Shown: positions 7,606 to 58,825 of the stretch, piece after piece | Layout of the letters: each line of letters opens with the position of its first letter | How positions within the stretch are numbered: the first letter of the stretch is position 1 | Origin: Methanomassiliicoccus luminyensis B10 | GTDB taxonomy: Archaea > Thermoplasmatota > Thermoplasmata > Methanomassiliicoccales > Methanomassiliicoccaceae | Assembly: GCF_000308215.1 (NCBI RefSeq) | Contig: NZ_CAJE01000020.1 | Span: 1-64,000 of the forward strand | Direction of reading: 5' to 3' | Length of the DNA stretch: 64,000 nucleotides | Program-made: the position numbers and the translations under genes | Notes under the pieces: generated by a model | The model's database searches: none | The model's input: only the letters and a program-made list of their open reading frames with translations | What the model was told of the DNA's origin: nothing

Positions 7606-8871
7606 TCAGAGGCCGTTCACGATCTCGTCCAGCAGGTACATCGCCCCCTGGGGCCCGAAGATGGAACGGGGGATGAAATCGAACTTGTCCAGGGACGGCA
7701 GCGAGATGTCCGCCCCTACGCGGCAGGCGCCCATCCCCTTCATCAGCCTGGCGGTGTGGCCGTCGGCGAGCGCCACATCCGGCCTGGCCTCGTCGATGCT
7801 CTTCTCCCAGGCGTCCCCGAACCCGCTGTCCTCCAGGAACGAGCGCAGGGCGCCGGCCATCGGCCGGCATGCCCCTGGGCTCAGCTGCACCGACGCCGGC
7901 ACCATCCCCAGATAGTTGAGGAGCCACTTGACGAGGGGCAGCGCCACCGAGCTGTCCGCCTTGACCGCGAACGTAGCTCCCTTGGGCAGGGTAGTGTGGG
8001 ACTGGAACTCCCTGAGCAGCTGGACCGAGATCTCCCGGTGGTGCTTGACATTGACCAGCGCCTCAGAGGGATCGGCCCCCGTCGCCGAGGCCGCCGCGCG
8101 GAGCCAGCTCTCCGTGGCGCTGAAGCCTACGGGGGCCCCCTCTTCGCATGTGACGCAGGGTATGCCGTACCTCTCTCGGTAGAGGTCAGCGGTGGCGGAG
8201 GCGTATTCCGGCGATACCACGATGTTGCAGGAGGCCTTCACCGAACCGCGCAGCTCCTCGACGGTGCACCCGGCCCCCGGTGCCGATATCACCTTCAGGC
8301 CCATCAGGCCGAGCAGCAGGCGGAGCCCGGCCACGGCATGCTTCCAGTCCTTGTTGGTGATGGGCAGGCCGAGGAGGTTGACGCACCCCGCCTCCCTCCG
8401 GACGCGGGGAGGGTCGAGCCACTCCAGCACCGAACGGATGGTGGCGTCGTAGCTGGTCGAGAGGGGGGCAGAGAAGGTCGATCCTTCGATGGCCAGCACC
8501 TTCTCGGAGAGACCGCTCCGGGCGATCACGCCTTCCAGGTCGTCGCCGATCAGGGCCGCCCCCGGGGCGTTTATCACCACTGCCAGGCTGTCCCCCTTCC
8601 TCTCCACAGAGGGCAGGATGCATTCCATCTTCTCCGCCGAGCCCTGTATATAGTCGTCCTCGTCGAGATAGGTGCAGGGGACCCTGGGCTGCCCGAAGAA
8701 GAACGGCTCTATGAACTCAGGACGGTCTCGGGAGGACCGGGGATGGTGAACCTCGGACAGGAAAGAGTGATAGTGCCGGCAACCCCCCGGCCCGTTCAAT
8801 ACGACGCGGGCGTCGGGTATGCTCTCCACCGCCAGCAGGCTGCCCGTGAGGCCGTCGGGGTCGACGCCCAT
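7606..8871 (-). CDS. Nitrogenase component 1-like protein, NifK/NifN/BchB-type beta subunit
   Basis: A 421-residue protein of the oxidoreductase/nitrogenase component 1 family. Near the N-terminus it has LNGPGGCRHYHS (Cys31), then VPCTYLDEDDYIQG (Cys66), both at places where NifK/BchB-type subunits hold an Fe-S cluster. The third usual cysteine, before the conserved IGDD, is replaced (INAPGAALIGDD). ATG 8871 overlaps the stop of the NifH-NifD fusion by one base (TGATG), so the two are coupled and most likely form a complex. The open frame extends upstream to 8997 but only as overlap. Known relatives reduce N2, protochlorophyllide, chlorophyllide or Ni-sirohydrochlorin diamide; next to chelatase genes a tetrapyrrole substrate is the best guess. 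Confidence 0.85.
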   Translation of the reverse strand: MGVDPDGLTGSLLAVESIPDARVVLNGPGGCRHYHSFLSEVHHPRSSRDRPEFIEPFFFGQPRVPCTYLDEDDYIQGSAEKMECILPSVERKGDSLAVVINAPGAALIGDDLEGVIARSGLSEKVLAIEGSTFSAPLSTSYDATIRSVLEWLDPPRVRREAGCVNLLGLPITNKDWKHAVAGLRLLLGLMGLKVISAPGAGCTVEELRGSVKASCNIVVSPEYASATADLYRERYGIPCVTCEEGAPVGFSATESWLRAAASATGADPSEALVNVKHHREISVQLLREFQSHTTLPKGATFAVKADSSVALPLVKWLLNYLGMVPASVQLSPGACRPMAGALRSFLEDSGFGDAWEKSIDEARPDVALADGHTARLMKGMGACRVGADISLPSLDKFDFIPRSIFGPQGAMYLLDEIVNGL

Positions 8872-11060
8872 CAGAGCTCCTCCCCGTCCTTCCAACCCTC
8901 CACCGCCGGAAGCCTGATTATGTCGGCCCACCGCTTGGCCAGCGCGATCGACGAGCGTACCCCCACATCGGGACGGTGAACGATATCGCAGCGGCATGCC
9001 AGGTCCTGGGGGAGCCTATGGTCCGCCAGTATCAGGTCTGGGCGCATCGCGTCAATGTCCGGCCTCATGTCCTCCGGCGAATAATCCTCCTGGAACACTA
9101 TCGAGCTCCGGTGCCGCGACCTGTCCGGCATGTGCTTCGGGCCCAGGCCCGCCTTCAGAACGACCATGTCCAGGTCCAGGAGCAGGTCCAGCAGCCAGTC
9201 GATGTCCTGGGAGTAGTTGTCGGATACCAGGACCTTCCTGCCCTTGAGCAGGGGCCGGAGCTCGGACGTTCCCTTCCGATACTCCTCCCTTATCTCCGTG
9301 ACCATGGACCTGCCTGCCGCCTCCCTCCCCATCTGACCCGCCAGCTTCTCGACCCAGGCCACGGTCTCGTGGAGGCCGACCGGCAGCGGAAGATCGAAGA
9401 TGCGCGCGCCCAGCCGGTCCCTGAGCATCTCGCATATCTGCCGGGACATGGCGTCGTCCTGGGCCATGATGCTGAGGCCGCCCCGCTGGAACCACCTGAT
9501 GGAGGGGATGTCGCACTCGCACAGGAACCGACAGTTCACCTCCAGGCCCAGGCCCCCGAGCACTTCCCGGGCGGCCTTGAAATTGCTCTCCCGGTTGTAG
9601 TTGAAGAAATCCCTCTCCGCGATGATGTTGACCATGCCGCTCTCGGCGGGGACGGCGCGGTCGACCAGCTCGATGGCCTTCCCCACTGCGTCCAGGTATC
9701 CCTGGTCCCACTCCCCGGTGATGTTCCCGTCGGACTCGATGACCTTCACCTCCGCCCCCTCGAACTCGCCCTCTACACGTTTGGCCATGGACGCGACGTC
9801 GTCGCCGATTATACCCGAGGCGCAGGTCGTCACCACGAACACGGTCCGGAAGCCCTTATCCAGTTCTTCCCTGATCAGGCGCTCCAGCTCCGCGACCCCG
9901 CCGAAGATGGACAGGTGGTCGTCCATGTCCGTGGAGGCCACCCTGGCGGCCGCCGGACCGAACTGGACCTCGCCGTTCCTCTTCCAGGAGCTCAGAGTGT
10001 AGTAGTCGCTGCTGGATGACATTATGTGCGCGCAGCTCCGGGGCCCGTGCACTATCGTCACCGCGCCGTCGATCTGGGAGGTGCAGTAGACCGCCCCGTT
10101 GGTGGCGCAGGTGTGCACGACCTTCCGGTCCTGCGGGGCCGCGGGGAGCTGCGGCGGCTCGCACCGCGCCAACGCGGCCTTTGGGCACGCCTGTTCGTCC
10201 GCGGGCCGAGGGGGCTCTTCCCGCACCTCCGCCATGGGGACGGGCCTGCCGGCGGCCAGGGCATTCAGCTGATCGTCGTCCAAAGGCCTGGCCGCCCTCA
10301 GCACGCTGGGGTCCTCGGAGGCTCGGATGACGTGCCGGGACAGCGTCCCGATGACCTTGGCCAGAACGGAATCGGGGAACATCTCCATGACCGTGCGGGC
10401 CTCCTTCTCGGCCTGGGCGAACAGCGCGCTGCGGGGGATCCTGGCCAGTATGGGGAGGTCCACGGCCCGGGCGAACCGCTCCACCATCTCGTCCTCTCCC
10501 TCCAGCCCGCGCCCGTTAAAGATAAGGCCGGCCACCCTGGCCGAGCTCCCGTCGAAGTTCCGGACGCCCTTCAGGATGTTATTGGCCGCGTATATCGACA
10601 TGAACTCCCCGGAGGTCACCAGGCAGACGGCATCGGCGTACTCCCTCCGCAGGGGAACAGCGAAGCCCCCGCAGACCACGTCGCCCAGGACGTCATATAC
10701 CTTGATGTCGAACTCATGATCGTCCAGGCCGAGCTTCTTCAGCACATCGAAGGTGGTCAATATCCCCCTCCCCGCGCAGCCTACCCCGGGCTCGGGACCG
10801 CCGGCCTCCACGCACTTGATGCCCAGGGCCCCCTCCTGGAGAACATCCTCCAGGCGGCGCTGGACTGGCGGGACATCCCTGATGTAGCCCAATACCGTCC
10901 GCTGGGCCGCTCCCCCCAACAGCAGCCTGGTAGAATCGTGCTTGGGGTCGCAGCCGACCTGAAGCACCCTGTTGCCCTCCTTGGCCAGAGCGTAGGACAG
11001 GTTGGCCGAGACGGTCGACTTCCCTATGCCCCCTTTGCCGTATATCGCGATCTGGAACAT
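8871..11060 (-). CDS. NifH-NifD fusion: nitrogenase-like reductase plus catalytic subunit in one chain
   Basis: One 729-residue open frame joins two proteins that are normally separate. Residues 1-265 are a NifH/BchL/CfbC-type ATPase with P-loop GKGGIGKST (8-16) and the two 4Fe-4S ligands Cys95 (VGCAGRG) and Cys130 (VVCGGF). A Pro/Ala-rich linker of about 50 residues follows. From about 316 on is a NifD/BchN/CfbD-type domain with Cys318, Cys326, Cys343 (HGPRSCAH) and Cys413 (TTCASGIIGDD). It would deliver ATP-gated electrons to its own active site and pair with the NifK-like product of the next gene. It starts 20 nt after chlD and ends overlapping the NifK-like gene. Fusion by sequencing error is unlikely because no stop or frame change occurs across the linker. 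Confidence 0.9.
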   Translation of the reverse strand: MFQIAIYGKGGIGKSTVSANLSYALAKEGNRVLQVGCDPKHDSTRLLLGGAAQRTVLGYIRDVPPVQRRLEDVLQEGALGIKCVEAGGPEPGVGCAGRGILTTFDVLKKLGLDDHEFDIKVYDVLGDVVCGGFAVPLRREYADAVCLVTSGEFMSIYAANNILKGVRNFDGSSARVAGLIFNGRGLEGEDEMVERFARAVDLPILARIPRSALFAQAEKEARTVMEMFPDSVLAKVIGTLSRHVIRASEDPSVLRAARPLDDDQLNALAAGRPVPMAEVREEPPRPADEQACPKAALARCEPPQLPAAPQDRKVVHTCATNGAVYCTSQIDGAVTIVHGPRSCAHIMSSSSDYYTLSSWKRNGEVQFGPAAARVASTDMDDHLSIFGGVAELERLIREELDKGFRTVFVVTTCASGIIGDDVASMAKRVEGEFEGAEVKVIESDGNITGEWDQGYLDAVGKAIELVDRAVPAESGMVNIIAERDFFNYNRESNFKAAREVLGGLGLEVNCRFLCECDIPSIRWFQRGGLSIMAQDDAMSRQICEMLRDRLGARIFDLPLPVGLHETVAWVEKLAGQMGREAAGRSMVTEIREEYRKGTSELRPLLKGRKVLVSDNYSQDIDWLLDLLLDLDMVVLKAGLGPKHMPDRSRHRSSIVFQEDYSPEDMRPDIDAMRPDLILADHRLPQDLACRCDIVHRPDVGVRSSIALAKRWADIIRLPAVEGWKDGEEL

Positions 11061-22023: not shown

Positions 22024-23652
22024 TCACAGCCGGTCCAGGCCGTCGAGGCCGTCGTCATCGTCGTCGATGCGCCGGCTGTTCTGCATGGCCCTCCTCTGCA
22101 GGTCGGACATTCCCCTCCGGGAACGGACGGGGGCGCGGGCCGGGGGGCGCCGTCTGCCGCCCTTGCGGTGCCGGCCGAGGTAGACCATGATGCCCACGAT
22201 GACCACCGCGATCACGGCCGCCACTATGCCTAGCATGGTGAGGATATCGTTGGGGGCCATGGTCAGGTCGCCCATCTCGCAGAACTGCCCTGCCGCCAGG
22301 TCGACCTGCAGGGTCTGGGAGGCCCAGCCGGACTTGGCGATGGTCAGCTCGTGGGTTCCGGCGGAGGCCTGGAAGTAGTACCTGCCAGTGGCGTTGGTGA
22401 CGAACGACTGGCCGTCGTCCAGGGTCACGGTCGCCCCCTCCAGGGGGTTCCCGTTGCTGTTCCTGACGATGCCGGTGATGGTGCCCAGGTCAGTGGTAGT
22501 GAACGACCACGAGAACGTTATGGGGTTGCCCACCAGGTCCTCTCCCGTGACAGTGGCGGTGTATCCAGTCCCGTAAGACAGCGCAGAGGACGGGACGAAT
22601 GTAGCGATGAGGCCGTCCCACTGCATCGTGCCGGCGACCCCGCTGACCGTAATGGCAGTGGCGCTGTGGTCCATCTCCTTAGAGAACTGCACGGCTATGA
22701 GGACGTCGATTGCCTCGCTGCCGCCGGTGGGAGTGTGGGCCATGAGGCTGAGCTCGGTGGTGTCCACAAAGAAGGTGACGGAGTCGGAGACGGTATTGCC
22801 GGCCTTGTCCACCGCCACGATAGTGACGGTATGGTGCCCATCAGAGTAGCCATGGGTGAATTGACGCGCGGTCGTGGCGGCGTCGATGTTCTTCACCCCA
22901 TCGACCCATATCTGATACCCGACCAGTGTCGTATCGGTACTGGAGCCTGACCAGGACACGGTGACGTCATCGTGGTTGAACCCCGTCCCATTGTCAGGAC
23001 TCGTTATCTCCACGGCCGGAGCGATCGTATCGACGGTGAAGGAGACCGTTCGGACGGCGGTGTTGCCAATCCTGTCATGAGCTTCTATGACGAAAGTGTG
23101 GGGACCGTCTTCGAGATCAATCGCCATGTATGTTTTGGAAGGTGGGAGCAACTGGCCGTCCCCGCCGTCCAGGCTGACATTGAAGAAGGCGATCAGCGAC
23201 GGATCGGTGGCGCTCCAGGTCACGTTCGTCGTGGAGCTGCTCAGCCACGCACCGTTGGCCGGCGAGGTTATGCTAAGCGAGGGATCGGACGTATCTACGA
23301 TGAAGTTTACCGAGTCGAACGCCCTCTCCCCGGTCTGGTTGTAGATCCACACCTTGACCGTATGGTACCCTTCGGGGACACCCTGGAACAGGTGGCCTTC
23401 GGTGGTCTGGGCCACCAGTATGGGGTTTTGATCCAATTGTACCTCGCAGAACCACACGTCCCCATCAGGAACGCTACTCGTCCAGGTCACCGGCACCAGC
23501 GGGGAAGCGAGGACCGCGTTGTGCGCCGGGCTGGCGATGGTGACCGTCAGGTCACCTGATGCGGCCGCCGCTTGCGTGGAGAGGCCTGGGGCAGCCACCC
23601 ACGCACCGCTGAACATCAATACAGCTAAGACTAGAGCTAAAGAACGTCTCAT
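22024..23652 (-). CDS. Secreted, membrane-anchored Ig-like repeat protein
   Basis: 542 residues. A signal peptide (MRRSLALVLAVLMFSGAWVAAPG) is followed by three Ig/cadherin-like repeats, each with a TVTIASPAHN / SITSPANGAWL / EITSPDNGTGF type strand and a closing V(S/N)F.VDT strand. A Big_5-like domain follows (about residues 295-390), then a carboxypeptidase-regulatory-like domain (GTITGIVRNSNGNPLEGATV). A transmembrane helix near residue 475-495 and a basic C-terminal tail hold it in the membrane. A surface or cell-envelope protein. Monocistronic. Confidence 0.85.
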   Translation of the reverse strand: MRRSLALVLAVLMFSGAWVAAPGLSTQAAAASGDLTVTIASPAHNAVLASPLVPVTWTSSVPDGDVWFCEVQLDQNPILVAQTTEGHLFQGVPEGYHTVKVWIYNQTGERAFDSVNFIVDTSDPSLSITSPANGAWLSSSTTNVTWSATDPSLIAFFNVSLDGGDGQLLPPSKTYMAIDLEDGPHTFVIEAHDRIGNTAVRTVSFTVDTIAPAVEITSPDNGTGFNHDDVTVSWSGSSTDTTLVGYQIWVDGVKNIDAATTARQFTHGYSDGHHTVTIVAVDKAGNTVSDSVTFFVDTTELSLMAHTPTGGSEAIDVLIAVQFSKEMDHSATAITVSGVAGTMQWDGLIATFVPSSALSYGTGYTATVTGEDLVGNPITFSWSFTTTDLGTITGIVRNSNGNPLEGATVTLDDGQSFVTNATGRYYFQASAGTHELTIAKSGWASQTLQVDLAAGQFCEMGDLTMAPNDILTMLGIVAAVIAVVIVGIMVYLGRHRKGGRRRPPARAPVRSRRGMSDLQRRAMQNSRRIDDDDDGLDGLDRL

Positions 23653-42231: not shown

Positions 42232-45200
42232 TCAGTTCTGCCGCTTCCTGCTGTACAGGGCCACGCCGAGCACCCCGGCCGCAATGACCACCGCCAGGAT
42301 GCCGAGGCCTAGCGGGGTGTCGCCGCCAGCCTTCCCCAGGGCCTGCAGGCTCAGGGTCCCCAGGTCCCTGCCCTCGCCCACCGCGGCGGAAAGGTTCTGC
42401 GATAAGACCTTGTAGCCGTCCTTGGTGACCGTCAGGGTGTACGTCCCAGAAGCGATCTCATCGAACTCGAAATGGCCGTTCGCGTCGGTGGTGGCCGTCC
42501 TTCCATCGCTCAGCTCGACGGTCGCACCGGCGATAGGGCTGCCTCCCTCGTCCTTGATGATCCCACAGATGACGCCCCACAGGTGCGAAACGGAGGAGGT
42601 GGCATCCTGCTGCACGGTGCCGATGTCGGAGCCGTCCACCGTTGCGGCGGAGGCGCGGAACAGGAAGAGACCGACGCCGGAGGCGGAGAGGCTGCTGTCT
42701 GTGATGGTCGCTCGAGAAGTATCGAGGAAGATGGCGATGTTCAGCACCTGTATCGTGCTGCCGGAGACGTGCACCTCCGAGCCAGCGGCGGAGATGCCGT
42801 TCTTTATGGCCAAGGGAAGCGAAGCGTTCCCAAAGGTCCAGAGATTGATCGCCGCCCTCGCTATCGGGCTGTTGTCCATGGAATAGTACGGCACCTTGAC
42901 CATCTCGTTCGGATCGCTCGGGAGCAGTATATCATCGCCGAAGTAGAGCACCGAGCCGGTCGCGCTGATGGCGGTGACCAGCATCCCGTAGCTGTTGCCG
43001 CTCGTGGTCACGGTGGAATCGGTCATGCTGATGCCCACGTGGCTGGTCATCAGGTCATAGATCATTTCCGCGCTGCCCGAGTATAGCAGTACATTGCCGT
43101 GCTCCGGGTACCCGAGAAGGGTCATGGCGCTGAAGATCGCGTACATGTCGAACGACGGCGAGTACCCGATCCTGTTGCCGGTTATGCTCACGGTGCTGCC
43201 GTCCACCGATATCTCCACCTTGTTCAGCAGGAAGGTGTTGCCGACGATGTTCCCGCTGGCGGTGTTCACGACGCTGATGCCGTCCAGGGCGTTCATGAAG
43301 AAGATATTGCCTATCACGTTCCCCAGGTCGGCATCGTTCGCCAGTATCCCGTGCTGGTTCATGATGAACATATTGCCCACGATCAGGGGATCGGCCCCCT
43401 CACCAGTGATGAACACTCCGGCGGCGCCATTGCTGGCAAAGCTGCTGTCCAGTATGATCGGCGCGCACCCGTCGATCATGATGCCGTGGCCGAGGTTCGA
43501 GTACACCGAGGAACTCCTGATGCTCGCCACCGCAGTGGGGCCGAGGTACAGCTCGACGGCGTAGCCTACCTTGACCGAGTTGAGGTCCAGGGCGCCGTAG
43601 ACGTCGAAGCCGTAGTAGCCGAGGTACCCTTCGAGGATGCCGCTGTCGCTCCCGAAGGACAGGCCCGCGGCAGTGGTGCCGATGTTCGAGTTAAGCACGT
43701 TCAGCGTGCCGGCCTCGTTCACGGTTATGCTTCCGTTATCATTCTCGTAGTTGACGAGGAAGTGCTCCACGCCCTTCAGCGACATGGTCCCGTCGATTAT
43801 GACATCGCCGCTGAACAGCACGCCGTTGTTCCTGACCATCGCGGACAGATCGATGAACCAGTGCGCCTCCTTTACGTCAGAGGCATACACTCCCCAGCCG
43901 AGGTTGTTGTTGATCTCTCCGTTGTACAGGTCGAGGTGCTCGATGAAGAGGACATAGATGCCGTCGCCGTGATTGCTCAGGACGGTATTGTTGCCGATGA
44001 CGACGTTTGAAGGGTATCCGTCCGAGCCGTCGATGCAAATGCCGTCCCCATTGCTGTTCTCCACGATGTTGCGCTCGATGGCGATGCTATGCGAGAATAT
44101 GGACCCGCTCGCCTCGATGCCGTCATCGCCGCTGCCGTTGATCTCATTTTCGCATATGGCGATAGTGTCGAGGTAGGCGTCCTCGCCGCCGAGGCGGATC
44201 CCGCCGCCCCCATTGCTGCAGATGACGTTGCTGCAAATGGTCAGGTCCCATATGTTGCTGAGTTCAGCCCATATCCCGATGCCGTCATCGCCGCTGTTCA
44301 TGACGGTGTTGCCCCTTATGAGCAGACCCCCGACGTAAGAACGGTAGGTGAAGGTTTCGTTCGTACCGTAAATATCTACGAATATGCCGCGATCCTGGCT
44401 GCCGATGACCTCGTTGCAGGTGATGTTCAGGTAATCGATCCCCGCCAACCATGCGTACACGCGGATGCCTGAACCTACCCCGCCATAATCCTCGACCCCG
44501 TTGCTCTCCAGGATGTTGTTCGCGATGACTATCTCGCCGATGATGCTGAAGAAGTAGCTACCGCCTGAGGTATAGCCCGAGATATAGACGGCTATGCCTC
44601 CACGGCAGTTGTTCCTGACCTCGTTGCGCTCGATGATCACGCGGTCGGTGCTTTCCCGGCCGAAATTCAGGTCGATGCCGTCATCGCCGTTGTTCTCGAT
44701 TGCGTTGCTAGCGATCAGGACGCCGTAGAAGGCCCCTCCCGCGCAGACGCCGTCGCCTCCGTTGCCCTCTACGATGTTGTTCACGACGGTGAGGTTCCCT
44801 GTATTATCGGCCCAATAAAAGATGCCGGACCCGTAGGCGCAGTCCGCCACGCAGTTGTTCGATACGGTGGCGTTCCCGACACGGCCGCAAGAGACGAAGA
44901 TGCCTCCGCCATCGTTTGAGTGGAAGTGGTTGGACCCTATGAACACCTCATGGGCGTAGTAGATGGTGAAGAGGATCCCGTTGTAGCCGTTCTCGGTCAC
45001 GATGTTGCCGGTGGCGGTGACATTGCCTACGGCAAGGTCAACGGAGAGATAAATGCCATAGCCGGCGCTGCCGCCGATGATGTTGTCCAAGACCTTGACA
45101 TTGTGGATGTCCCCGCTGGACGCGATGTGCATGCCGTCATCGCCGCTGTTCATGACGGTGTTGCTGCGGAAGGTCACGTTCCCGAACTCGCTGCCCTCGA

Positions 45201-48051
45201 ACCATATGCCATGGTTCTCGCTGTTCTCCACCGTGTTGTGCCGGACCGTAACGTTGGTGAAGGTGCCGCCGGCAAACTGGACACCATATCCCTTGCTGTC
45301 CCAGATCTTGTTGTCCGCCACGGTGACATTGCCGAAGACGTCGCCTTCGAACCGAATGCCTGCGTTGGAGTTGTTCCAGGCCTGATTGTTCCGGATATCA
45401 ACGTTACCGACAGTATCGAATTTGAGGCCGATCCCGAACACGGTGTTGTTCCCGACCCTGTTATTCTCGATCGACACGTCGCCGGAGGCGTTCCCGCGGA
45501 AGCGGATGCCGGAGCGAGAGTTGTTGCTGGCAGTGTTGTCATGTACGGTGACATTGCCGAAGACGTCGCCTTCGAAGTACACTCCGTCCCCGGTACTGTT
45601 CTGGAAGGTGTTGTGCCGGATGATGATGTCGCCGATGCCCTGGGTCTCGTACTGCAAATCAAATATGTCGCCCCCGCCAATGCGGAACCCTGCGCCGCCG
45701 TTGCCGTTCAGGGCGTTGTCCTCGATGGCAACGTCCCCGATGCTGCCATTATAGGCAAGGACGAAGATGCCCCCCTCGTCGTTGCCCGTCACGACATTGT
45801 CTCTGACCATGACGTCTCCGAGGCCGATCCCGCTGTCGACCCTGATGCCGATCTCGCCGTTGTCCTCGATGACATTGCCCAGCAGGGTGACGTCCCCGAT
45901 GCGTCCGAAGGTGCTGTAGAAATCTATACCATAGTCGTCGTTCTCGCTCACGGTATTGTGCGCGGCGGTGATGCTGCCTATGTCCAGGTTGGCCTGTAAA
46001 CAGATGCCCGTATCGGCGTTGCCCCGCACCTTGTTATCCCGGAGGATCACATCGCCGATGGTGCCAGTACTCGTGAAGACTGCTATCCCACAACCGTCGT
46101 TGCCGTTGGCGGTGTTCCCATCGATGAGGACATCGCCGAGAACGATGGCAAGAACGCCGATGCCGTCATAGCTGTTGGAGCTGAAATTGTTCCCTGTTAT
46201 GTTGATGTCTCCGAGAGTGCCGCCCTCGACGTAAAGGCCGGCAAACGAGCCGCCGATGCCGTTGCCGGTGATGATATTGTTCTTAATGATGATTATGCCG
46301 TCGAACTCATTCCCGCCCACTTTGATGCCGTTGTAGTGGTTGCCCCGGACCTTGTTGTCCAGGATGGTGACTTTTCCGAAGCCGCCATTGTAGCAGTAGC
46401 CTGAACCCCAGTTGCCGAGGCCCGCTTGGATGCCGTCGCCGCCGTTGCCGTCAAGGACATTGCCTGCTATGGTGACGTCCCGGAACCCGTTGTTCCGGTA
46501 AGTATTCGGGGCGATCTCTTCGCCGCCGCCGACATATATGCCGTCGTTCCCATTTCTGCTGGCCGTGTTTCCAGTTATGGTCACATTGCCATACCCATAG
46601 CCCCAAAAGGCCATGCCCGCGTTGCCGTTGTCGCTGGCGGTGTTCCCGAAGATCTCAATTTTGCTGAAATTGCCGAAGCACCAAATGCCCAGTCCGTTCC
46701 AGCCGTTGGCGCTGATGTTGTTGCCGGCAACGGAGATGTTGCCGCAGTAGGTCCCTTCCATGTAGAAGCCAGTGTACTTCTTGATGCCGCCGATGCCGTT
46801 GCCGGTCACGATGTTGCCATTGATCGTTACGCTGCCGAACCCGTTGCCGGTGAAAATAACGCCGTTGCCACGGTTGTTTTCGACGATGTTTCCCTCTATG
46901 ATGACGTCTCCGAAGGCGCCGCCGTTAACTACGGTGCCGTTTCCTACGTTGTTCCAGATATAGTTCCCTGATATGGTGACATCACCCAGGCCGACCGGGG
47001 CAAAGATGGTAATGCCGTAGCTGTCAACAGGCGCACCGGTGCTGTTCCAGATCTCGTTGCCGATGACATCGATTCTGTCGAAGCTGCCGGAAGTGGAAAG
47101 ATAGACCCCCGAAGTGCCGTTCCATACGTAGTTGCCTTCGATGGTGACGCCGCCGAAGTTGTAGGCGAAGATGAACATGCCGATGCCAGTACTGTTACCG
47201 ACCCGGTTGTCCGATATGATGACATTGCCAACGTCGCTGTTGGCATAGATCCGGATGCCGTAACCGTCGCTGGCCTCTATAATGTTGCCGGCGATGGTGA
47301 TGTCCCCGAGCGTGCCGCCGGTGCCGTCCATGGATATGGCGTACGGGCCGGACCTCGTGATGGTGTTCTCGCTAACTGCCGCACCGCTGCAGTTGTGCAG
47401 GGTGATAGCGCGGAGAACGTACGGGTGCACGGGGTAGGTGCCTGGAGCGGGGGCATCGGGCCCCACGATGGTGTTCCCGCTGACGACCGCATCGTCACAG
47501 CTGGACAGCACGATGGCGTATGGGACGTCCATGAACGTGGAGTTGAGCACGCTGATGCCGTCCGAACCCGTCGCGTTGACGGCCGCCGCGGCGGCCCTGA
47601 AGTTGGCGAAGCTTATCGATGTTTGGCCGCCGTTGATCCTGATGCCGTCCCAATAGCCAGGGTAAATTACCTTCTCGGAGACGGACCCATCCGGGCCGGA
47701 GGTCGGTCTAGGGTTGCCGTCGAAGATGACGGGGTGGCCATCGATGCCGGCCACGACCAGGGTGCCGTTTACGACGATCCCGGCATACTCATCGAACAGT
47801 ACCGTCACGTCCTGGGGTATCGTCAGGGTAGCTCCGGCCTGAACATACAGCATGCCGGTGATGTTGTAGGTGTCGCCCTCGACCCACATGGTATCGGAGG
47901 TTATTGTCCCGGCCTCTTCGTGCGAATCCGCCGCGACGCCCCCCATGCATAGGAGGAACGAGAGCGCGAGCAACGTGGCACACAAGAACACAGTGGTCCG
48001 CTTTCCCAGACTAAAACAGTTGAATGAGCACACCGCAGCCGACGAAGTCAT
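42232..48051 (-). CDS. Giant secreted right-handed beta-helix (NosD/PbH1-type) surface protein
   Basis: 1939 residues. A signal peptide (VFLCATLLALSFLLCMGGVAA) is followed by a long parallel beta-helix of roughly 60 coils with the PbH1 pattern I.(G/D)N...N..GI. (repeated DNxxxxNxxxGI and GNxVTxN units). Near residue 1825 a carboxypeptidase-regulatory-like domain (GIIKDEGGSPIAGATVELSDG) begins, then one membrane helix (LGLGILAVVIAAGVLGVALY) and a basic end. It is thus a membrane-anchored extracellular rod; such proteins bind or modify polysaccharides or act in adhesion. Start ATG 48051 has GGAGG upstream. Tandem duplication within the coil units is evident. Confidence 0.88.
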   Translation of the reverse strand: MTSSAAVCSFNCFSLGKRTTVFLCATLLALSFLLCMGGVAADSHEEAGTITSDTMWVEGDTYNITGMLYVQAGATLTIPQDVTVLFDEYAGIVVNGTLVVAGIDGHPVIFDGNPRPTSGPDGSVSEKVIYPGYWDGIRINGGQTSISFANFRAAAAAVNATGSDGISVLNSTFMDVPYAIVLSSCDDAVVSGNTIVGPDAPAPGTYPVHPYVLRAITLHNCSGAAVSENTITRSGPYAISMDGTGGTLGDITIAGNIIEASDGYGIRIYANSDVGNVIISDNRVGNSTGIGMFIFAYNFGGVTIEGNYVWNGTSGVYLSTSGSFDRIDVIGNEIWNSTGAPVDSYGITIFAPVGLGDVTISGNYIWNNVGNGTVVNGGAFGDVIIEGNIVENNRGNGVIFTGNGFGSVTINGNIVTGNGIGGIKKYTGFYMEGTYCGNISVAGNNISANGWNGLGIWCFGNFSKIEIFGNTASDNGNAGMAFWGYGYGNVTITGNTASRNGNDGIYVGGGEEIAPNTYRNNGFRDVTIAGNVLDGNGGDGIQAGLGNWGSGYCYNGGFGKVTILDNKVRGNHYNGIKVGGNEFDGIIIIKNNIITGNGIGGSFAGLYVEGGTLGDINITGNNFSSNSYDGIGVLAIVLGDVLIDGNTANGNDGCGIAVFTSTGTIGDVILRDNKVRGNADTGICLQANLDIGSITAAHNTVSENDDYGIDFYSTFGRIGDVTLLGNVIEDNGEIGIRVDSGIGLGDVMVRDNVVTGNDEGGIFVLAYNGSIGDVAIEDNALNGNGGAGFRIGGGDIFDLQYETQGIGDIIIRHNTFQNSTGDGVYFEGDVFGNVTVHDNTASNNSRSGIRFRGNASGDVSIENNRVGNNTVFGIGLKFDTVGNVDIRNNQAWNNSNAGIRFEGDVFGNVTVADNKIWDSKGYGVQFAGGTFTNVTVRHNTVENSENHGIWFEGSEFGNVTFRSNTVMNSGDDGMHIASSGDIHNVKVLDNIIGGSAGYGIYLSVDLAVGNVTATGNIVTENGYNGILFTIYYAHEVFIGSNHFHSNDGGGIFVSCGRVGNATVSNNCVADCAYGSGIFYWADNTGNLTVVNNIVEGNGGDGVCAGGAFYGVLIASNAIENNGDDGIDLNFGRESTDRVIIERNEVRNNCRGGIAVYISGYTSGGSYFFSIIGEIVIANNILESNGVEDYGGVGSGIRVYAWLAGIDYLNITCNEVIGSQDRGIFVDIYGTNETFTYRSYVGGLLIRGNTVMNSGDDGIGIWAELSNIWDLTICSNVICSNGGGGIRLGGEDAYLDTIAICENEINGSGDDGIEASGSIFSHSIAIERNIVENSNGDGICIDGSDGYPSNVVIGNNTVLSNHGDGIYVLFIEHLDLYNGEINNNLGWGVYASDVKEAHWFIDLSAMVRNNGVLFSGDVIIDGTMSLKGVEHFLVNYENDNGSITVNEAGTLNVLNSNIGTTAAGLSFGSDSGILEGYLGYYGFDVYGALDLNSVKVGYAVELYLGPTAVASIRSSSVYSNLGHGIMIDGCAPIILDSSFASNGAAGVFITGEGADPLIVGNMFIMNQHGILANDADLGNVIGNIFFMNALDGISVVNTASGNIVGNTFLLNKVEISVDGSTVSITGNRIGYSPSFDMYAIFSAMTLLGYPEHGNVLLYSGSAEMIYDLMTSHVGISMTDSTVTTSGNSYGMLVTAISATGSVLYFGDDILLPSDPNEMVKVPYYSMDNSPIARAAINLWTFGNASLPLAIKNGISAAGSEVHVSGSTIQVLNIAIFLDTSRATITDSSLSASGVGLFLFRASAATVDGSDIGTVQQDATSSVSHLWGVICGIIKDEGGSPIAGATVELSDGRTATTDANGHFEFDEIASGTYTLTVTKDGYKVLSQNLSAAVGEGRDLGTLSLQALGKAGGDTPLGLGILAVVIAAGVLGVALYSRKRQN

Positions 48052-51569: not shown

Positions 51570-52307
51570 TCACCTTCTCTTCCGGTTCTTCCTGCCCCCG
51601 TAGGTCAGGATCAGGATGAAGACCGTCAGGCCCAGGACCAAGGCCAGCACCAGGTTGATGATGCCCCACCCGGAGTCGCCGATGTAGAACTTGCCGGTGT
51701 ACTCGAGGGACCCGTCGGCGAAGCTCAGGAACTGGAACTTCTTATCGGGATCGATGACCACCTTGAAGGTGTGCTCCCCCTTCGACAGGTCAGAGGGGGC
51801 CCAGCGGTACGTGACCTCCTTGGTGGAGTTCGCATCGATGTCGAAGGTGGTGGCGTTGACCATGGTGCCGTCGACGTAGAACTGCACCGGGACGCCCTTG
51901 AGGGTCAGGTTCCCGGAGTTCTTGACGGTCGCCGAGATCACCACCGGCTCCACCACGTGGATGACGTACTTGGCGGTGGTGTTGTCCGTCCCGTTGCTCA
52001 GCTTCACCGTAACGGTCATGTCCCCCGTGGTGGCGGGAGCGATGACCGTCAGGGTGAAATTGTCATCGGAGATGGGGCCGTTCTTGGACGGTGTCACCGA
52101 GCCCTTGTCGGCGGTGGCAGTGTAGTTGTAGCTGCCTTCGGGGCTGCCGTCGCCCACGTTCACGATGACCTTCCCCGTCCCGCCAGTGGGCAGGTACTGG
52201 ACGCTCCCGTCGAAGTTTATCTTGTAGGCAACGTCCCCCGCTGCCGCCGGCAGGGCCGCGAAGGTTGCCATCAATAGCAGCGAGGCGATCGCTGCGGCCG
52301 ATATCAC
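51570..52307 (-). CDS. Secreted CARDB-like protein anchored by a C-terminal helix
   Basis: 245 residues. A signal peptide (AAAIASLLLMATFAALPAAAG) is followed by two Ig-like domains; the second (VVEPVVISATVKNSGNLTLKGVPVQFYVDG) is CARDB-like. A C-terminal membrane helix (GIINLVLALVLGLTVFILILTY) and a basic tail anchor it. Start GTG 52307 overlaps the AglB stop by four bases (GTGA), so it is translationally coupled to the giant oligosaccharyltransferase and may be its partner or substrate. Confidence 0.8.
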   Translation of the reverse strand: MISAAAIASLLLMATFAALPAAAGDVAYKINFDGSVQYLPTGGTGKVIVNVGDGSPEGSYNYTATADKGSVTPSKNGPISDDNFTLTVIAPATTGDMTVTVKLSNGTDNTTAKYVIHVVEPVVISATVKNSGNLTLKGVPVQFYVDGTMVNATTFDIDANSTKEVTYRWAPSDLSKGEHTFKVVIDPDKKFQFLSFADGSLEYTGKFYIGDSGWGIINLVLALVLGLTVFILILTYGGRKNRKRR

Positions 52308-55300
52308 CGCTTTCTTCTGCGTCCAAACACCCCCTTGTTAACTCTAAGGATGACCACGCTGGCGAGTGCGAGCACGATCAGCGCGATCAGGAGCCAGGTG
52401 GTCCCGGTCATGCCCGGCATGATCATGCTCGCCCCGCGGCCGGAAGCGGTCAGTTTGTCGTCGGCCACGCTCAGGTCGGCATCGTTCAGGGCCAGGCTGG
52501 CCGTGGCGGGGGTCCCGCCGTGGTTCTTGCTCTGGGCCGTCACATTCAGCACGATGTCGGCGGTGAAGGCGGACGAGTTGGTCCGGGTCAGGGTCACCGA
52601 CACCGTCTGGGAGGCGCCTGCGGCTATGGTCAGGTTCTGAGTATGCTTGCTGGTCCCGGTTATTGTGGCGTTCCAGCCGTCCCTCCTCAGGTCATCGGGG
52701 TTGGTCAGGCTGAACACGAAGATGTCACTGGAGGTCCCGGTGTTCTTCACCAGCACTTTGTAGGTCACGGTGGACCCATCGGTGCTGGGCGCGGAGGGCT
52801 GGCTGACGACGACGCTGTACGTGGGAGTGATGTCCACATCCACGCTGACCGTTCCCTGGCTCCCGGTGCGGTTCGTCGACTTGGCGACTATCTTTATGGG
52901 GGAGTGGGAGACCTTGGCGTCCGCCGGGGCGGTTATGGTCACTTGGACCGTTTGCCCGGTCCCGGTGCCCCAGGGCAGTGAAACGGTCTTCTGCGAGAAC
53001 TCCACGCCCCAGTCGGAGGTGGTGCTAAGCTCGTAGGTGTCGTTGACGTTGCCGCGGTTGTATATGGTAACGTTATACACGACGCTCTCGCCGGGGGCGA
53101 TGGTCGGTATCGAGTTCGCCTCGCTCCAGACCAGCTCCACCACGGCGCTGTCCACCAGCTCCAAGGCCGTGTCCTTGGCGGGGACAGCGGTGCCGTTCAC
53201 CTCAAGGTCGAAGGACCTGGCGTAGGTCATGTTCACCGGACCGGGATGGTTCTCCGCCACCACGACCTTGGCGGTGACGTTGTAGTAGCCCCGGGGCAGG
53301 AACACGGAGTAATCACCGTTCGCGTCGGTGGTGGTCCTGACCATGGCGTTGTCGGCGAAGGTTATGGTGGCGCCGGACTTGGCCTCGCCGCCGATGGTCA
53401 CGTGGCCGCTGACCTCGGTCCCGGCCGCCAGCGTCACGCTCAGGGTGTTGCCCACGTCGGGCTTCACGTCGACGATGCCCAGGTACACGTTCCCGGAGGC
53501 GTCATGGGCGTACACGCTGTATACGCCGGGAGCCAGGGAGACGGAGCTGGGCGACGAGCCGACGGTGTGATCGATGGCGGTGTCCGACAGGCCGATGAAC
53601 TGCCAGGTGACGTCGGAAACGGCCCCGTTGGCGGTCAGGCTCACGGTGGAGTTGTTGAGATCCCTGAGAAGCTCAAAGTCCTCTATCTCCTCGGCGTCGA
53701 CCGTCACCGGCATGCTGGAGTTATAATACCTGACGTACCGGGCGCTGCCGTCCTCCAGGGTGGCCTTGGTGGTGTATTCGGCCGAGACGGTGTAGTCGCC
53801 GGCCGGCAGGTACACGCTGAAGATGCCGCGCGAGCTGGCCGTCACCGGCAGGACCGCCGGGCCGTAGGTTATGTTCACGGCCGCGGGGATCGAGAGGTCC
53901 TCGCCGTCGTGCTGCAGCTGGCCGCGCAGGTTATGGGCAACCTTTGCCTCCAGATCGCCCAGGTCGTTGAGGCCCGGGGCTACGATCACAGAGCCGAGGT
54001 AGACGTAGTGGTCATCCTCGTCGGTCAGGTCGATATATATCGTGTAGGTGCCTGGCTTCAGGTACAGCGGGAGGTCGTTGACCCCCACGGTCCTGTTCTC
54101 CGGACCGATGATGCGGATCGTGGAGTCCGAATCATACGTGCTGGGACCGGTGATGTCCAGAACGACCTTGTGCTGCACGGCGGCTTCTATGTCAAGGGCG
54201 TCGGGGTCCCTGGAGATGGGCACGGTCAGGGTGCTGTTGTAGTAGTACCTCGAGGAGTCGTCACCTGAGGAAATGTTCTGGTCGATCACTACCCAATAGG
54301 TCCCCGGTTCCAGGGACGCGATGAACCTGCCTGAGGCATCGGTGATCGCGCTGTCCTCCTGGCCGCTGCTGCCGGTGGGCTTGAAGTTCACCGTCACGCC
54401 GCCTATGGAGATGCCGTCCTCGTCAGTGACCGTACCGGTCACCTCGCGGTCCTCCGCCTCCAAGGCGATGCTAACACCGGTGCCGGCGTCGCCCTGCCAG
54501 GTAGAGTAGCCCTCTATAGTGGCGTTGATTATGTAGGAGCCAGCGGGAACGGAGATGTTGTAGTTGCCGTTGGAGCCGGTGACGAAGCGCACCTTCTCCC
54601 CGGGCTCATCGGAGTTCCATATGCTCAGCAGGACGCCGGATATGCCGGACTCCCCGCTGTCCTGTTCGCCGTCCCCGTCGAGGTCCCTGAAGACCTTGCC
54701 GGTGAGATACACGGAATCGCCCAGGGCGATGTCCGTGGTGGCGTCGGCGAGGATCTGGACGTCGCTGGCCCAGTAGGACCTGCCCCCTCCGGACGCATAC
54801 ATGAAGTAGGTGCCGGTTGGCACTATCACGTTATACTCGCCCTTCGCATTGGCGACGGCCTTGACATAGGAGCCGTCAGGGAGGGTATAGACCACGATGG
54901 CGCCGCTGACGGCGCTCTCGTTGGTGTCCTGTTCGCCGTCCCCGTCGAGATCCTTGAAGACCGTGCCGGAGAGCACGGCCGCAGGGCCCAGCTCGATGTT
55001 CAGTGGCGGGACGGTGTCGGCATCACCGGTGCTGAAAGATTCCAGTGCGGCGCACTTGTTCCCGTCGCCGTCGACGGTCAGGACGTACACGCTGTACTCC
55101 CCACGGGGCAGGGATACCAGGTACCCGCCGCTGGCGTTCGTCATTACGGAGATCTCCCTCTGCTCGGAGCGGAAGACCACCGACACGTTAGCCTGCGGGA
55201 CCCCGCCGATGGTCACGGTCCCGGAGACGGTGGTCGCCTGGACCAGCTTGAGGTCCTGGGTAGCGGACTGCCCCTGGGTCAGGGTGATGCTCTGGGTGCC

Positions 55301-58300
55301 CACGCTCAGGCTCGAGTCCGTGGTGGTAAGGGTGTAGTCGCCGGGCAGCAGGTTCGAGAAGGTGTACTTCCCGCTACTGTCGCTGGTGGCGTAGTACTTG
55401 TTGCCGTTGACCTTGTCCACCAGGGTCAGGCCCACCCCGCCGGCGGCGCTCCCTGATTGGAGCTTTATGGTGCCGGTTAGCGAGGCGGGCATGATGGCGA
55501 TGCTGCGATTGGAGTTTCCGGACGCGGTCAGCGTGACCGTGGTCTCCCCCAGCCTATGGCCGTTGTAGGTGGCGTAGAGGACCTGTGAGCTGCCAGCCAG
55601 GCCGAGGATCCGGTAGGATCCCGTCGTGGAGGTGGTCACGGTCTCGTTGAACCCGGTGGAGGGGTTCGTCAGGGTCACCTGGGCGTCGCTGATGAGCTCG
55701 TCGGTCCCGGCGTCGTAGCGGCCGTTGCCGTTGTTGTCATAGAATACGCTGCCGGTGACGAGGGCCGCCGAGAGGGTGATGTCGCCGTCGAAGTGGTAGG
55801 GCTCCTCTCTCATGGCCTGAGCGTAGGTGACGTACAGGTCCACGCGGTCGAGCTCGGAGGCGATCTTGGTCGCATTGTTCAGGGTGCCAGAGGAATAGAC
55901 CACGCTGACGTTGCCGAAGGGGAGGATCGCACTGTAGCGACCCTCCGAGTCGGTCTTGACGACCTGGTGGGGTATGCCGTACTCGTCCAGCACGGTGACG
56001 TAGATGTCGGCGTAGGGCGTGCCGTCAGTGGCGCGCGCGACGCCTTCCATGATCGCTCCGTCATAGTACTGCATGAACACCACGCCGGACTGCAGGGCCG
56101 AGACGGACATGTCCACGGTCCCTTCCGCACCGGCTTCGATCTGCTCTTGCAGGTACAGCGCTTCCTCCCACGACACCGCCTTCCAGGCGTCGGAGTGGTT
56201 GGTCGCGTCGGTGTAGGGGTTGTAGTACGCGGTGCGGTAGACCTGCTTGAAGTGAGTCAGGTTGTACCCGGGCATGGCGCCGTACGACGCCATCTGGTTG
56301 TAGCCTGGGAAGCTTTGCATGTTGGTCGACCCGATGTCCGCCGGGCTCAGGCCCATGAAGGAGCAGTATAGCATGGAGTTGTAGAACGCCTCCTTGTACA
56401 CGATGGTGTAGGTTATGATCGGATAATCACTCGCCGTGAGGTCCGATATCCGCTTGGTCTCGTAATTCTGAGTGACCGCCAGGATCTCGTAGTAATCGGT
56501 CGGCGCGTTGGTGGTCGAATCGATCACGCGGTCGGACAGCTTGGCCGGGGCATAGAAGATGGTCTGAGAGGTCGCGCTCCAGGGGAACAGGCGGCCGTCC
56601 ACGGCGAAGTAGCCGATGTCGATGCCGGTAGCTGCCCTCAGCTGGTTGTATATCTCGACCATATCCTCCAGCCCTACCTTCTGCAGCTCGATCCTCGCCG
56701 CGGCATACTTGGCGTTGTTGGCGCTGAGCTCGGAGTCATAGGCCCCGTAGATCAGGGGGTTGTTCTTGACCTCGTCCACGTAGTTCTGGGGGTTGTTCAT
56801 TATGTCCTCCAGCTTCACTACGTCCACGCCGCCGTCCTGAAGGATCTGGCGGGTGGCGTCGGTGAACTTGGCCTTTTCCAGGACCCTGACTATGAACAGG
56901 GCCACCGCGTCGCTCTCGTTCTGCGAAGTGATGAACGAACCGGCGTACTCGTAGCCGTTCTGGAAGTTATCCGCGACGGTGGGATGCTGCCCTTCCTGTA
57001 TCGCCTCGAACCCGTAGTCCCACCACGATAGGAAGGCCGGGCGGTCCTCCAGGTCCGCTATATCGGCGTCCTGCGTCTTGAACCATGACCAGGCAGTGGG
57101 CCAGTACGTGTTCGGCATGGGCAGGGAGTACCCGAAGGCCCCGAAGTACCAGTAGGTGCCGTTCTGGACATCGTACCCGTCAGGGCGAAGGAAGGACGGC
57201 ATGGCCTCGTACACTTCCCTGTCGTAGTCGGTCTTGGTCTGCGAAGGGATGCCCGCGTCCAGGGCCGTCCATACGTTGGGCAGGACGATCAGGAACGCCA
57301 GGAACAGCGCGACGGCCACGTGTTTGAGCTTGAAGGCCTTCCGGAGGGTGCTCTTGGGATTGGACCAGAAGCCGGCCCACAGCCGGGGCACTTCGCTGAA
57401 CTTTACCTTGCTGATGAGCAGCGCGAGGATCCATCCCGCGGCCATGGCGAAGGCCGGGGAGGCGTTGAACACGAACCTGCCCGCGGAAGCGGCCATGTAC
57501 ATGCTGACGGCCATCCACACCACGATGAACACGAGGTAGGGGGACTGGTCCTTGGGTATCTTGATCGCGGCCCACACCAGACCAATTATGGCGAGCCAGA
57601 ACGACACCACCCCGAAGCTGAAGACCAGGGTGGAGAACTCCGGCGCGGACGCCTCATCGATGGTGGAGTACAGCTTGCTCTTGACCAGGTAGCCCTGCCC
57701 GGAGATGATGGCCTCGAACAGGTTGGGGGCGATGAAGAACACGCCGACCAGGGCGACGGCCACTATGGCGACCAGGATGGGTATGGTCAAGGTCCAGGGA
57801 TAGTCCCTGGTGACGGTGAAGAACCCGCCGATGAACATGGAGCCCAGGAACAGGTAGAACGGAACGTCGAACCACTGGCTCCAGTAGCTGAGCTGCCAGT
57901 ACAGCGGGGCCGCCAGCACGAACGCGGTCAGGAGCATGATCCCCACGATGAAGAACTCGCCCATGGAGTCCGCGTTGCGGAAGCGGTTGATGACGACCTG
58001 GACCAGGAAGTATACCAGTATGATTACCAGTATGTAGGTGTACCCGGTCCATGCCATGGCCACTGTGGCTATGCACACGCCGCCCAGGGCCGAGTATATT
58101 AGTGATCTTTGATTCTGTTGGAAATAGGACCTGATGCCTGTACGTATGGAGTCCGTCTTCTTCCACGAGGAGACCCATTTCGTCCCTTTCATGGACTGCA
58201 GGGCCTTCATCAAGAAGTACAGGGCGAACACCACGAAGAACAGGATGAAAGCGTCGTGGTCGGCGTTGGCGAACACGCTGCGGCTGATGTGACCGGGCAT

Positions 58301-58825
58301 GAACGCGAACAGCAGCGCGGCTAGTATGCCGGCGCGGTTGCCGAAGGCGCCCCTGGTGATCAGGTAGACGGGGATGCAGGTGAGGGAACCCCAGATGGCA
58401 GAGGAGGCCAGCAGGGAGTATCCCGCGGCGTCGGAGATGGCCATACCGGAGATGCCGGACAGTACCTGGCTGCCTATGGCTACGGACCAATCGAACATCG
58501 GCGGACGGGCGTTCCTCATCCCGAAGGGATAGTTGAGCGCGGGGTCCTGAACGAGGTGGGAGCCTTCTGAGTTGACGTAGTCGATGACGCGCTGATGATA
58601 ATATGAGTCTGAACCGCCAGCGACCAAAAAGCCATTGTCCACCGCGGTGGAGAATCCGAAGTAGCTACGCACGAATAATGCGAGCAAAACGATAGCTACC
58701 AGGATGAGGACAGTGCTCCAATTCCTCCCCAGCCAAGTATCCTTGGGACCAGAGCGGGAGCTACCTCTTACAGGCTTTAGTTCCCTCAGGGATCGGCCCA
58801 ACGACCTACCCTCATTCGATTCCAT
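52304..58825 (-). CDS. aglB: AglB/STT3-type oligosaccharyltransferase with a 1200-residue extracellular repeat extension
   Basis: 2173 residues. The N-terminal third is a GT-C oligosaccharyltransferase: about a dozen membrane helices up to residue 530, the first D-x-x motif in GGSDSYYHQ (Asp73), a second in FANADHDAF and the catalytic-site motif WWDYG at 601-605. It moves lipid-linked glycan to Asn in N-x-S/T. AglB normally ends near residue 900. Here, from about residue 920, come at least eight carboxypeptidase-regulatory-like and SdrD B-type repeats (units with DLDGDGEQD), then NEW3/CARDB-like domains, and a final membrane helix (TTWLLIALIVLALASVVILRV) with a basic end. The frame is continuous throughout. 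The extension must face the outside. Confidence 0.92.
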   Translation of the reverse strand: MESNEGRSLGRSLRELKPVRGSSRSGPKDTWLGRNWSTVLILVAIVLLALFVRSYFGFSTAVDNGFLVAGGSDSYYHQRVIDYVNSEGSHLVQDPALNYPFGMRNARPPMFDWSVAIGSQVLSGISGMAISDAAGYSLLASSAIWGSLTCIPVYLITRGAFGNRAGILAALLFAFMPGHISRSVFANADHDAFILFFVVFALYFLMKALQSMKGTKWVSSWKKTDSIRTGIRSYFQQNQRSLIYSALGGVCIATVAMAWTGYTYILVIILVYFLVQVVINRFRNADSMGEFFIVGIMLLTAFVLAAPLYWQLSYWSQWFDVPFYLFLGSMFIGGFFTVTRDYPWTLTIPILVAIVAVALVGVFFIAPNLFEAIISGQGYLVKSKLYSTIDEASAPEFSTLVFSFGVVSFWLAIIGLVWAAIKIPKDQSPYLVFIVVWMAVSMYMAASAGRFVFNASPAFAMAAGWILALLISKVKFSEVPRLWAGFWSNPKSTLRKAFKLKHVAVALFLAFLIVLPNVWTALDAGIPSQTKTDYDREVYEAMPSFLRPDGYDVQNGTYWYFGAFGYSLPMPNTYWPTAWSWFKTQDADIADLEDRPAFLSWWDYGFEAIQEGQHPTVADNFQNGYEYAGSFITSQNESDAVALFIVRVLEKAKFTDATRQILQDGGVDVVKLEDIMNNPQNYVDEVKNNPLIYGAYDSELSANNAKYAAARIELQKVGLEDMVEIYNQLRAATGIDIGYFAVDGRLFPWSATSQTIFYAPAKLSDRVIDSTTNAPTDYYEILAVTQNYETKRISDLTASDYPIITYTIVYKEAFYNSMLYCSFMGLSPADIGSTNMQSFPGYNQMASYGAMPGYNLTHFKQVYRTAYYNPYTDATNHSDAWKAVSWEEALYLQEQIEAGAEGTVDMSVSALQSGVVFMQYYDGAIMEGVARATDGTPYADIYVTVLDEYGIPHQVVKTDSEGRYSAILPFGNVSVVYSSGTLNNATKIASELDRVDLYVTYAQAMREEPYHFDGDITLSAALVTGSVFYDNNGNGRYDAGTDELISDAQVTLTNPSTGFNETVTTSTTGSYRILGLAGSSQVLYATYNGHRLGETTVTLTASGNSNRSIAIMPASLTGTIKLQSGSAAGGVGLTLVDKVNGNKYYATSDSSGKYTFSNLLPGDYTLTTTDSSLSVGTQSITLTQGQSATQDLKLVQATTVSGTVTIGGVPQANVSVVFRSEQREISVMTNASGGYLVSLPRGEYSVYVLTVDGDGNKCAALESFSTGDADTVPPLNIELGPAAVLSGTVFKDLDGDGEQDTNESAVSGAIVVYTLPDGSYVKAVANAKGEYNVIVPTGTYFMYASGGGRSYWASDVQILADATTDIALGDSVYLTGKVFRDLDGDGEQDSGESGISGVLLSIWNSDEPGEKVRFVTGSNGNYNISVPAGSYIINATIEGYSTWQGDAGTGVSIALEAEDREVTGTVTDEDGISIGGVTVNFKPTGSSGQEDSAITDASGRFIASLEPGTYWVVIDQNISSGDDSSRYYYNSTLTVPISRDPDALDIEAAVQHKVVLDITGPSTYDSDSTIRIIGPENRTVGVNDLPLYLKPGTYTIYIDLTDEDDHYVYLGSVIVAPGLNDLGDLEAKVAHNLRGQLQHDGEDLSIPAAVNITYGPAVLPVTASSRGIFSVYLPAGDYTVSAEYTTKATLEDGSARYVRYYNSSMPVTVDAEEIEDFELLRDLNNSTVSLTANGAVSDVTWQFIGLSDTAIDHTVGSSPSSVSLAPGVYSVYAHDASGNVYLGIVDVKPDVGNTLSVTLAAGTEVSGHVTIGGEAKSGATITFADNAMVRTTTDANGDYSVFLPRGYYNVTAKVVVAENHPGPVNMTYARSFDLEVNGTAVPAKDTALELVDSAVVELVWSEANSIPTIAPGESVVYNVTIYNRGNVNDTYELSTTSDWGVEFSQKTVSLPWGTGTGQTVQVTITAPADAKVSHSPIKIVAKSTNRTGSQGTVSVDVDITPTYSVVVSQPSAPSTDGSTVTYKVLVKNTGTSSDIFVFSLTNPDDLRRDGWNATITGTSKHTQNLTIAAGASQTVSVTLTRTNSSAFTADIVLNVTAQSKNHGGTPATASLALNDADLSVADDKLTASGRGASMIMPGMTGTTWLLIALIVLALASVVILRVNKGVFGRRRKR
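54655..54956. repeat. Direct repeat encoding the SdrD-like DLDGDGEQD units of AglB
   Basis: A stretch of about 40 bp beginning near 54657 is repeated near 54914 with few changes; both encode a F(R/K)DLDGDGEQD unit. A third, more divergent unit (FYDNNGNGRYD) lies near 55730. Such units in other proteins bind calcium and rigidify rods. Confidence 0.7.

Follow-up and report, generated by a model that had tools for sequence, protein, structure and literature searches.

A repeat-armed oligosaccharyltransferase of Methanomassiliicoccus luminyensis, its recurrence in the phylum and apparent active-site loss in two related lineages

The fused protein and its surroundings

The window, a stretch of 64,000 nucleotides, belongs to the genome (2,620,233 bases, 26 contigs) of the human-gut archaeon Methanomassiliicoccus luminyensis. 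Its minus strand carries an ATG-initiated open reading frame (ORF) of 2,173 aa at 58825..52304, stop included, without an internal stop (Table 1). Pfam assigned residues 39-477 to the oligosaccharyltransferase (OST) family STT3 (PF02516, E 3.6e-20), and a search of the genome identified this as its single STT3 gene. Archaeoglobus fulgidus AglB was the top match in a PDB sequence search, and an AF2 model of residues 1-1160, computed with relatives included, was recognizable as AglB (Foldseek to 7e9s, A. fulgidus AglB, E 2e-23). Alignment located the EL1 Asp in GGSDSYY, the EL2 acids in ADHD, TIDE and SWWDYG, and these motifs, the STT3 fold and the globular core are shared with A. fulgidus AglB (PDB 3waj, 7e9s). 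Inspection of residues 712-735 did not lead to assignment of a clear DK/MI motif, and the protein scores under the TIGR04154 cut-off.

Compared with A. fulgidus AglB, the M. luminyensis protein carries about 1,250 additional residues, folded into repeat modules, plus a second anchor. Pfam matches in the C-terminal half comprised eight stretches of CarboxypepD_reg and four of SdrD_B, and further matches past STT3 belonged to NOMO_5th and C-terminal Ig-like families. In the AF2 models, this arm starts immediately past the AglB core, and residues 975-2173 form a chain of beta-sandwiches with one terminal helix (mean pLDDT 84). Motifs marking module ends recur at a spacing of 80-95 residues and suggest ~11 transthyretin (TTR)-like and two Ig-like modules. 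Foldseek searches with the arm returned only generic Ig/TTR arrays. A pattern search yielded three SdrD-type D-x-D/N-G loops; bacterial SdrD/CnaB-type stalks (PDB 10ps, 6fwv) likewise combine a tandem stalk with SdrD_B modules bearing D-x-D-G-D-G loops, whereas the arm studied here is fused to a membrane enzyme and has a membrane helix plus basic tail as its anchor. By hydropathy, membrane segments end at residue 521 except for a single one at 2144-2162, which precedes the basic tail. The sequence-only reading had described an in-frame continuation of an OST into surface repeats that end in a second membrane anchor; the intact ORF, the Pfam domains and the AF2 models bear out the first part, and the hydropathy profile and modeled terminal helix the second. 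Between residues 521 and 2144, hydropathy revealed no membrane segment that would hint at processing into two halves.

Table 1 Features of the giant AglB-like protein in the window.
Feature	Window position	Strand	Evidence
Whole ORF, AglB plus repeat arm, 2,173 aa	52304..58825	-	ORF, Pfam
STT3 membrane domain, residues 31-524	57254..58735	-	Pfam STT3; AF2/Foldseek to AglB
EL1 motif GGSDSYY, residues 70-76	58598..58618	-	Alignment
EL2 motif ADHD, residues 188-191	58253..58264	-	Alignment
TIxE motif TIDE, residues 388-391	57653..57664	-	Alignment
WWDYG motif, residues 601-605	57011..57025	-	Alignment
AglB globular core, residues about 530-900	56126..57238	-	Weak AglB_core-like match; model
About 11 transthyretin/SdrD-like modules, residues about 901-1870	53216..56125	-	Pfam, AF2, module-end motifs
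SdrD-type putative calcium loop DNNGNGRYD	55712..55738	-	Pattern
SdrD-type putative calcium loop DLDGDGEQDTNES	54914..54952	-	Pattern
SdrD-type putative calcium loop DLDGDGEQDSGES	54647..54685	-	Pattern
Sequon N855 (NLT), conserved	56255..56263	-	20/22 motif-intact, 0/14 motif-less
Sequon N1725 (NST), conserved	53645..53653	-	22/22 motif-intact, 0/14 motif-less
Two Ig-like modules, residues about 1905-2105	52511..53113	-	Pfam FixG_C/NPCBM_assoc, HYDIN-type matches; model
C-terminal membrane helix plus basic tail, residues 2144-2173	52307..52396	-	Hydropathy; helix in model

The neighboring genes encode HypB, PurD, a translin-family protein, a radical SAM protein, RpoA'' and two unknowns, and no glycosylation cluster was found in this neighborhood. 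Elsewhere on the minus strand of the window, a 729-aa ORF (8871-11060) joins NifH-like and nitrogenase-component-1-like domains in one chain, which may represent a CfbC-CfbD fusion acting in coenzyme F430 synthesis. Another surface protein is probably encoded at 42232-48051, where a NosD-type parallel beta-helix protein of 1,939 aa has one C-terminal CarboxypepD_reg module, and a 542-aa ORF (22024-23652) has a CarboxypepD_reg module in addition to several Ig-like modules of the bacterial type.

Distribution in the order and phylum

Homologues were detected in 135 of 147 genomes of the order, including all 74 of good quality; on sufficiently long contigs, most of them were ORFs of 1,830-2,550 aa. 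They occur as single ORFs on many independent contigs, several of which are single-contig genomes (such as G135 and G300). An assembly join or misread frame is ruled out by this repeated layout. Scanning 284 genomes of the phylum for PF02516 yielded ORFs of about 2,050-2,400 aa within the class Thermoplasmata and of about 1,150-3,300 aa in other classes, the same families of repeat modules following STT3 in every deep lineage sampled, bar one 916-aa copy. The architecture is common to free-living and acidophilic classes, and the second anchor is missing from the shortest forms seen in other classes. By these comparisons, the long, repeat-bearing AglB is the phylum standard and no oddity of M. 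luminyensis. The protein had been singled out as unusual in the sequence-only reading; its long repeat arm is real, but ORFs of this length are the rule in the phylum. A search of the open-access literature, with incomplete coverage, turned up no earlier account of either the fused architecture or the motif loss reported below.

Two observations concern individual copies. Genome G226 encodes two STT3 proteins, the 916-aa L046 of the AglB_L1 type without repeats and the 1,288-aa, repeat-bearing L047. The giant AglB L041, from another class, ends in PGF, a helix and RRRR, resembling the archaeosortase signal PGF-CTERM.

Catalytic motifs and acceptor sequons

An alignment of full-length proteins revealed that TIxE, the RF pair and WWDYG are gone in most genera of Ca. 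Methanomethylophilaceae, a family whose members include Methanomicula labiotermitis, Methanomethylophilus sp. UBA78 and UBA381. EL2 is broken in these motif-less proteins, with ADHD replaced by NGTE or similar, and in most of them the EL1 Asp has disappeared as well (GGSDSYY to GGxSAS or GGTGAS), a few members such as L072 and L235 retaining it. Two genera of the family, g19 and g22, have kept the catalytic motifs. A further case is L070 from G015, a Methanomassiliicoccus relative in the same family as M. luminyensis itself, with a GC content of 41.5% that resembles the 41.3% of 'Ca. M. intestinalis'. Here TIxE, RF and WWDYG are gone, one half of the EL2 pair is missing too, and the EL1 Asp is retained (GGYDAY). 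A tree calculated without the motif columns requires two losses, forced by its starred branches, and the motifs were thus lost at least twice, in L070 independently of Ca. Methanomethylophilaceae. Having relatives without the active site is a further difference between the M. luminyensis protein and A. fulgidus AglB.

In other families of the class (L205-L211, L226-L227 and L229-L233), the EL2 acidic pair is replaced by DGRMHTPE or ANYLSF, and EL1, TIxE and WWDYG are kept. The OST of these families may bind metal differently. Since just the EL2 pair is altered there, wholesale motif loss is peculiar, among the lineages read, to Ca. Methanomethylophilaceae and that of L070.

Complete ORFs of motif-less proteins remain open at 1,830-2,550 aa with C-terminal anchor and basic tail present, and neither BLAST nor PF02516 scans found a second STT3 in these genomes. 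For close motif-less pairs, dN/dS values of the former STT3 domain were 0.09-0.30 (NG86, composition bias uncorrected), and the membrane domain was the most constrained region. Such purifying selection after active-site loss makes a second, structural job probable. One competing explanation treats the protein as an ordinary OST with an extended substrate-handling domain, the arm just capturing acceptors and the motif-less proteins being enzymes of another kind or relics. It accommodates the retention of every catalytic motif in motif-intact copies and the arm directly abutting the AglB core; joint loss of the metal-binding motifs in an ORF that stayed open and constrained, however, is at odds with a relic and with a normal metal-dependent OST alike, and we consider this explanation improbable.

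Sequence change is faster in the arm than in the catalytic half. Arm dN/dS was 0.12-0.14 in g23 versus 0.5-0.8 in a UBA71-related group (NG86, composition bias uncorrected). Values as high as the latter, together with SdrD-like and adhesin-like modules, would suit a fast-evolving surface receptor or adhesin for host, partner or virus contact that became fused to an OST by chance. Constraint on the g23 arm argues against this, as does the same architecture in free-living and acidophilic classes, and we regard a receptor or adhesin arm as highly improbable.

Acceptor sites were assessed as N-x-S/T sequons. The arm of M. luminyensis contains 26 such sites versus 12.5 in shuffled sequences (z 4.6). 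Across the arms of 22 related motif-intact sequences, the observed/expected ratio was 2.22 for NxT, 0.94 for NxS and 1.08 for reversed TxN, while 14 related motif-less sequences gave 1.16 for NxT and 1.15 for the reversed pattern. Three proteins with intact motifs, L071, L085 and L088, nevertheless have arms without NxT enrichment. In L070, 0 of 11 conserved sequon Asn residues are kept versus 10 of 22 other conserved Asn residues (Fisher p 0.013). Exported proteins followed the same trend when up to about 0.45 Mb of a genome was sampled, with few proteins and crude export calls: two motif-intact genomes had NxT observed/expected ratios of 1.91 (1.35-2.54) and 1.83 (1.26-2.39), three motif-less genomes had 0.88, 1.26 and 1.16, and the cytosolic proteins of these samples stayed near 1. 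In these data acceptor sites track the enzyme, with NxT about 2-fold over expectation alongside intact motifs and close to background without them. The M. luminyensis arm is probably N-glycosylated. The suggestion that the enzyme presents its own glycosylation substrate survives in this weaker form, backed by the doubled site count, the 2.2-fold NxT excess and one sequon present in 22/22 sequences, with the three unenriched arms standing against it.

A scan for retention of the glycan pathway by PF00953 (ALG7/AglH type) matched 0 of 147 genomes of the order. With the family absent everywhere, the scan cannot separate motif-intact from motif-less lineages, and glycan assembly must begin with another kind of transferase.

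Roles of the enzyme and its arm

The reading that we favor, at slightly less than an even chance, is a dual-role envelope protein: the OST of the cell and, at the same time, a coat arm that bears N-glycans, is anchored twice and keeps a non-catalytic role after catalysis has gone. The N-terminal half would act as the sole cellular OST, transferring a lipid-linked glycan to N-x-T, and less to N-x-S, of exported proteins. The C-terminal 1,250 residues would leave the catalytic domain on the cell exterior as an arm of about 13 beta-sandwich modules, its SdrD-like modules probably stiffened by calcium, which would carry N-glycans and rejoin the membrane through the second anchor. Tethered at both ends, a chain of ~13 modules could arch on the scale of a ~20 nm layer. 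In archaea mostly without an S-layer, the enzyme itself would be a coat component, and this role would be independent of catalysis: in Ca. Methanomethylophilaceae and the second lineage the active site is lost and the whole protein retained. The basis for this reading lies at the sequence level, in the architecture, its recurrence in the phylum, motif loss, subsequent purifying selection, and sequon enrichment and co-loss; from it we infer enzymatic activity, arm glycosylation, calcium binding and the coat role.

Background on the cell surface is compatible with such a coat. Thermoplasmatales mostly lack an S-layer and have an unordered layer of ~20 nm containing protein of unknown identity, and their surface filaments carry N-glycans (PMC12448462). 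For M. luminyensis, a prominent wall is absent (PMC4153887). The Thermoplasmatales exterior layer (PMC12448462) shares with our system the phylum, the missing S-layer and an N-glycosylated surface, the link to AglB being our proposal. The envelope-scaffold role put forward in the sequence-only reading gains indirect backing through the two lineages that lost the active site and kept the whole protein under purifying selection. Counting against the dual-role reading are the unenriched arms of L071, L085 and L088, the shortest forms without a second anchor and the small sequon samples.

What argues most strongly against a pure coat role is the dead multi-pass domain, which is the most constrained part of the motif-less proteins and would be expected to erode if the arm alone were needed. 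This constraint favors a membrane partner and adds weight to the main rival, a translocon-associated folding platform, in which the arm would sit like a NOMO ectodomain over the SecY exit beside the glycosylation site and receive nascent exported and membrane proteins; docking at the translocon would persist in motif-less lineages through the dead STT3 domain. Searched against the PDB, the arm profile ranked NOMO2 first (E 8e-27), before SdrD, and NOMO, a BOS-complex subunit at the multipass translocon, is built from prealbumin-like domains (PMC11186639). Both proteins thus have tandem prealbumin/TTR-like modules on the outer side, but NOMO is no enzyme, is single-pass and forms a complex with Nicalin and TMEM147, whereas the M. 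luminyensis protein is multi-pass with an OST. The NOMO match is also unspecific, the module family being widespread and SdrD and pilin-like stalks matching too, and a fast-evolving, sequon-rich arm would be odd for a chaperone surface. Overall, we regard the folding platform as rather unlikely, and the dual-role envelope protein remains our preferred reading.

At an even chance, in our estimate, a mostly gut-associated methanogen family has given up OST catalysis, and probably protein N-glycosylation, and keeps the giant OST as a pseudoenzyme that selection preserves for a structural or translocon role, the acceptor sequons being lost together with the enzyme, independently in two lineages. 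Archaeal N-glycosylation has AglB as its signature enzyme, and the process is inferred from the presence of the gene; in much of Ca. Methanomethylophilaceae, that presence is no evidence of catalysis. The phylum-wide recurrence and natural pseudoenzymes that part the two roles are what the present analysis adds. Motif-intact and motif-less relatives in one order serve as natural knock-outs in which catalysis and the structural role come apart. By uniting an OST with a NOMO-like array in a single chain, the protein may offer a lead on the origin of translocon accessories and, if the arm is a coat component, it would be a candidate for the protein layer of S-layer-less Thermoplasmatota.
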